DNA of 64,000 bases from an uncultured bacterium (lineage in GTDB: Bacteria; Desulfobacterota; BSN033; UBA1163). The stretch spans positions 1 to 64,000 of the forward strand of contig CALLAL010000003.1 in assembly GCA_938002255.1 (NCBI GenBank), written 5' to 3'. A program made the position numbers and the translations under genes. The notes below the pieces were generated by a model, which was not told where the DNA came from, ran no database searches, and saw only the letters and a list, made by a program, of their open reading frames with translations. Below, piece after piece: positions 27,514 through 51,549 of this stretch (positions are counted from its first letter, which is position 1; every line of letters begins with the position of its first letter).

Positions 27514-28320
27514 TTATATTGAACCCTCCTGAATTCCTTCCAATTCAAATTTCACCACACCTGTTGGAAGATCCAGCTCCATAGAGATCGGAATCCTATC
27601 TCGGTTTGCAGAATACCAGATGCGAATCGTCCCCTCTTTGTCTCCAAAACTGGAAAAAACGGTTTTTGATTCAAGACAGACCGCCTCAAGGGTCCCCAAA
27701 AATGGTGAAGCCACCTTAACACGATGTGATTGGAAAACCATCTGCCGAAACTTCACCCCATCAAAAATGGACATATGAATCTCTTGTTCTACTGGGAGGC
27801 TTTCTTTCAAATGATATCTGGCGAATAGAGCGAGCGGGTCAAGGGCCAGGGCTGGGAAAACAAATTCTTTCTTCCCACCCTCTCCGTCCTTTTCCACCAT
27901 CGCTTTAGGAGATCTGGAATCAAAGGTGATGGTCTGGATATATTTTTTTTTCTTGATGAAAAGACCTTCCTGGTCAATCCGTTTGACATACTGGAGCGGA
28001 CCGAAGGGGTCTTTCTCAATCACCGAGGTAAACCGATTATTCATCCGAAACATAAATTCTGGAAGTTGATGAGAAACCACTTGAGCATCAACTCGATAGA
28101 GTTTATTCTCTCCATTCACTGCTCCGTTTCCAATTCGAATGGTCGCTTTGAGAATGGGAATACCTAACTTTTTGGCTGTGTAATAAAAAGTTTTCGTTGG
28201 GGGATGATCCAGATTATAAAACTCTTCTGGGTTGGCTTCATTGACTTTCAATCCAAAGCTCAGAAGAAGCCCTATCACTACCCCGATATTTCTGATCGCT
28301 TTTTGATGTCGATGCTTCAT
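27514..28320 (-). CDS. DUF3108 domain exported protein
   Basis: About 268 residues from ATG 28318-28320, which begins a basic N terminus and hydrophobic signal (VVIGLLLSFGL). A TTG/ATG pair 30-33 bases upstream is an alternative. The body (FYYTAKKLGIPILKATIRI, FDSRSPKAMVEKDGEGG) matches DUF3108, a periplasmic beta-barrel-like fold of unknown function. The family is common in Desulfobacterota and is sometimes linked to envelope lipid or polysaccharide genes. Followed by the Cys-rich small gene. Confidence 0.8.
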   Translation of the reverse strand: MKHRHQKAIRNIGVVIGLLLSFGLKVNEANPEEFYNLDHPPTKTFYYTAKKLGIPILKATIRIGNGAVNGENKLYRVDAQVVSHQLPEFMFRMNNRFTSVIEKDPFGPLQYVKRIDQEGLFIKKKKYIQTITFDSRSPKAMVEKDGEGGKKEFVFPALALDPLALFARYHLKESLPVEQEIHMSIFDGVKFRQMVFQSHRVKVASPFLGTLEAVCLESKTVFSSFGDKEGTIRIWYSANRDRIPISMELDLPTGVVKFELEGIQEGSI

Positions 28321-28388
28321 TGTCAAACGTCTAAAATTATAATTAACCATCAAATGGCCAATTTGTCCAGAAAATTTTTCCTGAGCCA

Positions 28389-28613
28389 GTAACCCCTCAG
28401 TTAAAGAAATAAAAAAGGGTTGGGAGGTTGCTTCGGAAAAACCTTGAAGCGAAACCTCTGTTCGTCAAACGACCCAATCTGATTTAAAAAAATCCGATTC
28501 AAAGGGCATGAGGGCCCCGATGGGGGTAACCTTTTATAACCGCTATTCAAGGTTTTGGAGGAGGAACGTTCCAACCCTTTTAAACCGAAAACACCCCATC
28601 ACTGACGGGTTAC
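28389..28613. repeat. Dispersed nested-palindrome repeat, long form, copy A
   Basis: Outer arms GTAACCCCTCAG (28389-28400) and ACTGACGGGTTAC (28601-28613) are inverted. Next come AAAAAAGGGTTGGGAGGTT (28411-28429) against AACGTTCCAACCCTTTT (28565-28581), then AAAACCTTGAA (28438-28448) against its perfect complement (28546-28556). The 225-bp unit can fold into one long interrupted stem. It is clearly related to 36669-36889 and, by its ends, to 28622-28715 and 51380-51480. No reading frame is conserved inside it. Confidence 0.85.
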
Positions 28614-28621
28614 CTGAGCCA

Positions 28622-28715
28622 GTCATCCCTTAGTTAAAGTGAAAAGGTTTGGGAGAGGAAACTGCCCAACCCTTTTAAAATCCATAATACCCCATACCCC
28701 ATCCCTGAGGCATAA
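28622..28715. repeat. Dispersed palindromic repeat, short form, copy A2 in tandem
   Basis: The same end motifs without the interior: GTCATCCCTTAG at the left, CCCTGAGGCATAAC at the right, and a central hairpin of GAAAAGGTTTGGGAG with CTGCCCAACCCTTTT around AGGAAA. It follows copy A directly; both are preceded by CTGAGCCAGT, so the two units form a tandem. The remaining bases of the gap to nrdJ (28716-28823) show no structure. Confidence 0.75.
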
Positions 28716-28823
28716 CCTAAAGCACTTATAGGGTTCCCCTGTTTCGATTACAGGGAAAATCGTAAAAGATAGAATCAGGAATGAACAAAAGAGGGAAGGA
28801 GGAGCAGAAACATCTTGGGAGGT

Positions 28824-36668: not shown

Positions 36669-36889
36669 GTAACCCCTCAGTGGAAGGAATAGAAAAAGGG
36701 GGGAGGTTCAGTCGTAAAAACCCTGTAGCGAAATCTTGATCGTTTAAACTTCTCCCGTTAGTTTTAAAAACATCCGATTGAAACAGGTTGAAGGCTCAGG
36801 GGAGTAACTTCAATGTCCGCAAGGTAAGGTTTTGGAGGGGGAACTTTCCAACCCTTTTCAATCAATAAGATTGCCTCATGGAGGAGTTA
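36669..36889. repeat. Dispersed nested-palindrome repeat, long form, copy B
   Basis: GTAACCCCTCAGT (36669-36681) and AAAAAGGGGGGAGGTT (36693-36708) at the left; GAACTTTCCAACCCTTTT (36841-36858) and a worn GGAGGAGTTA end at the right. The interior aligns with copy A (28389-28613), for example AAAAACCCTGTAGCGAAATC, ATCCGATTGAAA and AAGGTTTTGGAGG. It fills most of the 344-bp gap between mlaE and the next gene; the rest of that gap has no feature. Confidence 0.82.
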
Positions 36890-36948
36890 AAAATTCCTCC
36901 CCTCCCAGATAGAGAAAAGGGAGGGAAAAACCTGTCCGTTTGGGTCCA

Positions 36949-51379: not shown

Positions 51380-51480
51380 AGCAACTCCTCGGTGATAATG
51401 ACAAAAAAGGGTTGGAAGGTTGTGAAGAGGGAACTTTCCAACCTTTTTTAATCAATCATACCCATCATTGAGAGGGTACA
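51380..51480. repeat. Dispersed palindromic repeat, short form, copy C
   Basis: Outer arms GCAACTCCTCGGTGAT (51381-51396) and ATCATTGAGAGGGTAC (51464-51479). Inner hairpin AAAAAAGGGTTGGAAGGTT (51403-51421) with AACTTTCCAACCTTTTTT (51432-51449), nearly perfect. It has the same end sequences as the copies at 28.4-28.7 and 36.7 kb but no interior. It lies in the divergent gap between prmA and the BASS gene, so it is not simply a 3' terminator. Confidence 0.85.
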
Positions 51481-51549
51481 GGTGGGAAAGGGCTCTCCCT
51501 TGCAATAATCGGTTTGAAAAGATATGTTGGTAAGAAAAAGATCATCCAA

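Follow-up and report, generated by a model that had tools for sequence, protein, structure and literature searches.

Most bacterial insertion sequences show weak target choice. A habit unusual among prokaryotic transposases was described for TnGBS and the ISLre2 group, which insert 15-17 bp upstream of the -35 box, and a similar habit was found in the ISKra4 group (Guerillot et al. 2014, PMC3942029). These Mutator-type DDE elements (p-MULT 3 for TnGBS/ISLre2 and p-MULT 4 for ISKra4) lie at a fixed distance upstream of the sigmaA -35 box, and their orientation is related to the symmetry of their terminal inverted repeats (TIRs); those with near-perfect TIRs occur in both orientations (PMC3942029). 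For IS66 elements, 8-bp direct repeats are known (PMC3281130), and ISDge4, a member of the ISBst12 group, has a single tnpC-type transposase, ends of the form GTAAC..CTCAG (GTGACTACTCAGCA / GTAACTGCTCAGCA) and the 8-bp direct repeat CCTCGATG (PMC12898284). Among small repeats, MITEAba12 is non-coding and IS-derived with inverted ends, and has putative outward promoters inside the element (PMC6382973), while REP/BIME sequences, which go with RAYT, are palindromic, intergenic and present in many copies. The repeats described here are a MITE family with long forms of about 225 bp and short forms of about 70-100 bp. It is very probable that the family was moved in trans by an ISBst12-like IS66 transposase and inserted at a fixed site upstream of sigma70 promoters. 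A habit published for Mutator-type elements appears thereby to be extended to another transposase family, which looks like convergent evolution. The open-licence literature searched contained no report of IS66 elements that target promoters, although an earlier one may exist.

In the window, the whole 64,000-nucleotide stretch of DNA that was analysed, the initial annotation had described four related units, two long and two short. An nhmmer model of the four copies recovered each of them with E values of 1e-20 to 1e-28, and gave no convincing place for a fifth unit in the window. The limits given for the long copies A and C were exact, while the ends of the short copies were shifted by 1 bp (B ends at 28716, not 28715; D spans 51381-51479, not 51380-51480). 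Copy A is 73% identical to copy C over 227 columns, and copy C is a member of an older subfamily. In copies B and D the outer ends and inner hairpin arms are retained, and most of the interior is missing. The proposal that such short forms are internal-deletion derivatives held in outline; the break points of B and D differ from each other, and a 95-bp short form with a perfect 8-bp target-site duplication (TSD) was found in a relative. Right after copy C, at 36890-36930, lies a G+C-rich inverted repeat (TTCCTCCCCTCCC...GGGAGGGAAA) outside the family.

Table 1. Positions in the window of the MITE copies, their ends, their duplicated targets and the neighbouring promoter-like sites.
Feature	Position	Strand	Remark
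Long MITE copy A (225 bp), recent	28389..28613	+	40 genome copies at 93-97% identity
Left terminal inverted repeat of copy A, GTAACCCCTCAGT	28389..28401	+	
Right terminal inverted repeat of copy A, one mismatch	28601..28613	-	ACTGACGGGTTAC on + strand
Inner inverted arms of copy A (AAAAAGGGTTGGGAGG... / ...CCAACCCTTTT)	28414..28581	.	pair and covary between species
CTGAGCCA, duplicated target on the promoter side (left) of copy A	28381..28388	.	
Target-site duplication CTGAGCCA between A and B, common to both	28614..28621	.	
Outward promoter-like site 19 bp from copy A	28342..28369	-	9/12 consensus match
Short decayed MITE copy B	28622..28716	+	
CTAAAGCA, decayed third copy of the A/B 8-bp target, directly after copy B	28717-28724		
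Long MITE copy C, from an old subfamily, diverged (73% to A)	36669..36889	+	TSD decayed
Short MITE copy D, divergent gap between prmA and SBF-type transporter gene	51381..51479	+	
Outward promoter-like site 20 bp from copy D	51500..51528	+	TTGCAA, 17 bp, TATGTT; 8/12

The absence of further copies in the genome had been named as grounds against a dispersed family. When the host genome (3,265,797 bases in 59 contigs) was searched at the DNA level, 102 first-look candidates were obtained, and 40 full-length matches were scored at 93-97% identity. A profile built from 26 copies (R1) found 72 copies, near-complete or cut by a contig end, at E below 1e-20, and about 8 further fragments or short forms, a density of roughly one per 45 kb; these copy numbers, like the ages, are approximate. 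The earlier observation was right, and the family is larger than four units. Several contigs of the draft genome (G000), e.g. C2, C3, C31, C33, C34, C54 and C55, end inside MITE copies, so the true copy number may differ slightly. It follows from these breaks that the family itself fragments the draft assembly. Relatives of the unit in the genus are mostly 70-81% identical over long stretches, and the copies at 93-97% are therefore probably a recent burst in the host lineage.

The initial annotation had left the choice between a MITE and a REP-type element, and had pointed to target-site duplications, to empty sites in relatives and to a transposase with matching ends as things to look for. 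An inverted repeat of 13 bp forms the ends, with GTAACCCCTCAGT on one side and the reverse complement on the other, and sites with at most one mismatch to GTAACCCCTCAGT numbered 116 in contrast to 2 for the reversed pattern. Among 60 copies with both ends placed, the flanking target was duplicated exactly over 8 bp in 28, at 7/8 in 18 and exactly over 9 bp in one, so that a TSD with no more than one mismatch is present in 47 of these testable copies, 46 times over 8 bp and once over 9 bp. At one locus, that of copies A and B, six relatives carry the ribonucleotide reductase / DUF3108 pair in one locus with no element match there, as expected of an empty site. Together with IS66 elements sharing the ends (see below), these findings support the MITE reading, and the units are short, multi-copy and too small for a transposase gene. 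The REP-type reading was not supported, since the TIRs and TSDs of a DDE transposon are present here, and REPs are not known to have either. Other elements with the same ends and TSDs, 95, 306, 342 and 434 bp long, were found in relatives, and some elements of 154-157 bp share the ends and have an unrelated interior. The interior of this second MITE type (L115:1501-1657, L119:1364-1517) is rich in CCCCCTTTGGCAAAGGGGG-like repeats.

The position of the copies relative to promoters was analysed by reading the flanks outward from the element end and recording the offset to the start of the -35 box. Promoters here are consensus calls of a -35/-10 pair and are thus predicted only. In a first count, TTGAC started at offset 19 in 21 and at offset 20 in 9 of 137 flanks, and when flanks were aligned on TTGAC, a -10 box followed after 17 bp. 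With refined ends, an outward sigma70 pair of at least 9/12 was found at offset 19 in 35 of 136 flanks and at offset 20 in 6, in contrast to 0-3 at each remaining offset in the range 0-69. Promoters facing inward gave no peak (0-3 per offset in the same flanks). The 41 pairs at offsets 19-20 compare with a mean of 1.3 and a maximum of 5 in shuffled flanks. The first histogram had already been seen when the offset window and the 9/12 threshold were chosen; the sets of relatives and autonomous elements were tested later. Base composition by distance from the element end, taken without motif alignment, departed most strongly at 19-22 and 14 and further at 23, 36-37 and 42-44 (the -10 box), with the TTGAC bias at 19-23 and a flat profile in the TSD. 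This bias at the same positions makes the promoter spacing independent of the chosen thresholds.

At offsets 18-21, 41 of 76 elements have a promoter matching 9/12 or better in one flank or both, and 54 at 8/12. It lies on the left only in 18, on the right only in 20 and on both sides in 3, so these MITEs, like the TnGBS, ISLre2 and ISKra4 elements with near-perfect TIRs, are found in both orientations. The remaining 35 elements, copy C included, have none at 9/12, and 22 have none at 8/12; some insertions may therefore miss, or hit weak or decayed promoters. In the window itself, the site beside copy A (TGGACA at 28369-28364, 16 bp, GTTAAT at 28347-28342) is directed at the DUF3108 gene 27514-28353(-); alone it is a weak match, and it is absent from the list of a separate pattern scan. 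The site beside copy D lies under the 9/12 threshold of a further scan, and copy C has no clear promoter at 19-20 bp. Relatives from the genus and family had a pair at offset 19 in 12 and at offset 20 in 3 of 52 distinct termini, some of which may be unrelated end-like sequences. Unlike in MITEAba12, where putative promoters are internal, the promoters here lie at a fixed distance in the target DNA.

Matching ends were found on a complete IS66 element from elsewhere in the phylum and on remnants within the genus, with no such transposase in the host genome, where PF03050 (IS66 transposase) had 0 hits. The complete element, 1603 bp long, is from a Desulfomonile genome (L143:1380-2982, same record as L223), and kinship with that genome would place the host in the phylum Thermodesulfobacteriota. 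It encodes a single 480-aa transposase (PF03050, E 1.8e-40, 139.6 bits; IS66 equivalog NF033517, 229.5 bits, over the cut-off of 180) and has perfect 16-bp ends GTAACCCCTCAGTTAC on both sides and a 9-bp TSD GGTACTGTT. Beyond the ends the MITE has little in common with it. In one relative of the same genus (G005) a contig begins inside IS66 tnpC, whose stop codon overlaps ACTGAGGGATTAC, and the same junction of tnpC stop and MITE end occurs in G002 and G015. An element in G001, of the same genus (L308:565-2057), has both ends and carries a DruA-domain ORF (PF14236, Druantia) before an internally deleted tnpC. In the left flank of the G001 element a promoter was seen at offset 19. The family has the GTAA.. 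ends and the 8-bp direct repeats of ISBst12-like elements, and the mover is likely an ISBst12-like transposase of the IS66 family. Since the host has no PF03050 match, we infer the helper from the relatives: an IS66 transposase would have moved these copies, and it would have been present formerly or may be hidden in an assembly gap. Another transposon was considered and rejected as a partner. An IS1634-family element with an intact transposase ORF (L055:203-2131, G000:C37) adjoins 17 bp left over from a MITE end; it was set aside because relatives that lack the MITE ends share its TIRs (TTAAACT..TCTTCTACAG).

The promoter spacing was also present in the autonomous elements. In a clade sampled from Desulfomonile, Schekmanbacteria, Riflebacteria, Acidobacteria and others, a pair of 8/12 or better was found at offset 19 in 10 and at offset 20 in 2 of 28 flanks. 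On the other hand, classical ISBst12-like members sampled, which are 23-29% identical to the L143 transposase, had no promoter spacing (1 of 49 flanks at offsets 19-20). The difference has a Fisher p of 8e-6, to be read with the caution that flanks taken from a single element or genome lack full independence. Strongly supported branches divide the promoter-spaced clade from the classical group in the transposase tree. No promoter was seen in some clade members for which both flanks are known (L225, L239). The Desulfomonile element has offset 20 with its 9-bp TSD, so the distance from TSD to -35 box is 11 bp, matching the cases with 8 bp and offset 19.

From these arrangements a mechanism can be proposed. 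The transposase would duplicate 8 bp at insertion, giving the order element end, 8-bp duplicated target, 11 bp and -35 box, with the promoter facing away, and the target would span roughly -55 to -47 relative to the start site. This region is the UP-element / alpha-CTD zone. Neither the promoter nor the DNA just upstream of it would be interrupted by such an insertion, which should therefore have little effect on the host gene, and the 8-bp target beside the promoter would be regenerated and usable by later insertions, which would account for tandem arrays. Reading away from the promoter, the window has CTGAGCCA, A, CTGAGCCA, B and CTAAAGCA. At C30:56640 a weak promoter is followed by TTTTTCTG, a long copy, TTTTTCTG again, a copy of about 69 bp and CTTTTCTG; a similar tandem with a truncated neighbour was found at C40:212. 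In L256:437-506 an IS66 end is followed by ATTTTTGT, a 61-bp palindromic MITE (GTAACTGCTCAGTGAAC..), AATTTTGT and a promoter at offset 19 (TTGCAA-17-TATAAT at 19 bp). The promoter-proximal copy is the longer and better preserved one in the window (A/B) and at C30, relative ages in tandems being judged from decay. This repeated use of one target fits a target defined by the promoter.

Guidance would come from a transposase complex that docks on RNA polymerase at the promoter or from one that reads the promoter DNA. We tentatively propose that an IS66 clade in several phyla docks on the RNA polymerase holoenzyme (alpha-CTD or sigma) and that the MITEs share this tether; if true, such docking would be the bacterial counterpart of Ty3 at Pol III promoters. 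It is also possible, with some reservation, that the transposase reads the -35 hexamer and T-rich upstream DNA with no part for RNA polymerase, a proposal which competes with the tether and leaves the MITE and IS66 assignments as they are. The strongest base bias is indeed at the -35 box (19-23) and in a T-rich stretch at 13-15. However, the -10 box is enriched as well: of the 31 flanks in which TTGAC lies at 19/20, 24 match it at 4/6 or better at spacer 16-18, in comparison with 6-8 at spacers of 22 and above, though 15 at spacer 10-12. Moreover, 59 of 62 empty sites tested lie in intergenic DNA, outside any ORF of at least 150 aa. Both the -10 enrichment and the intergenic sites could also follow from a loss of genic insertions. 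By either route, a clade of the common IS66 family appears to insert base-precisely while sparing gene and promoter, a rare kind of targeting, and the way in which a transposase finds promoters could be tested in this system. It would explain the intergenic repeats upstream of many genes in the host genus, and the insertions would mark sigma70 promoters in uncultured genomes.

The units could instead have been retained because they function as a structured RNA or bidirectional terminator, and have spread secondarily, which we consider very improbable. When both strands were folded, long copy A was better than shuffles on both (z -6.4 on +, -3.1 on -), and short D gave z -6.1 on +, while short B was no better than shuffles (z -0.4). 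The inner arms pair in 96.5% of cells in an alignment that covers 7 genomes with 14 sequences, and both partners have changed in 8 pairs, in comparison with 2.6 in shuffles; however, inverted-repeat arms that are copied together can mimic covariation. At columns 37/204 and 45/196 of alignment A3, many species have G-U pairs on the + strand, so that the RNA of that strand would fold better than that of the - strand; independent changes were too few for this strand preference to serve as evidence. No known RNA family was matched at gathering score at 28300-28800 (Rfam, best E 0.67), and terminator pattern scans were near chance, in line with the earlier remark that the units are not just terminators. 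TSDs, an empty site and transposon ends show ordinary transposition, and in a transposed MITE the inner-arm fold may matter for transposition or as an insulator.

It is very unlikely that the mover was a Mutator-type element (ISKra4 or ISLre2) rather than IS66. The same kind of target is published for those elements, with a spacing of 15-17 bp from the -35 box (PMC3942029), whereas the spacing here is 19 bp, and the word MITE is absent from that report. The autonomous elements with these ends have IS66 transposases, not Mutator-type ones, and show identical ends and the 19-bp spacing themselves, while ISDge4 has a close TIR (GTAACTGCTCAGCA) and an 8-bp direct repeat (PMC12898284). Random insertion with survival only upstream of promoters is hardly credible, although nearly all copies are intergenic as purifying selection predicts, because selection alone would hardly produce a peak one base wide, with 35 flanks at 19 bp and 0-6 at any other offset, that recurs in relatives and in autonomous elements of other phyla, nor the re-use of an identical 8-bp target.
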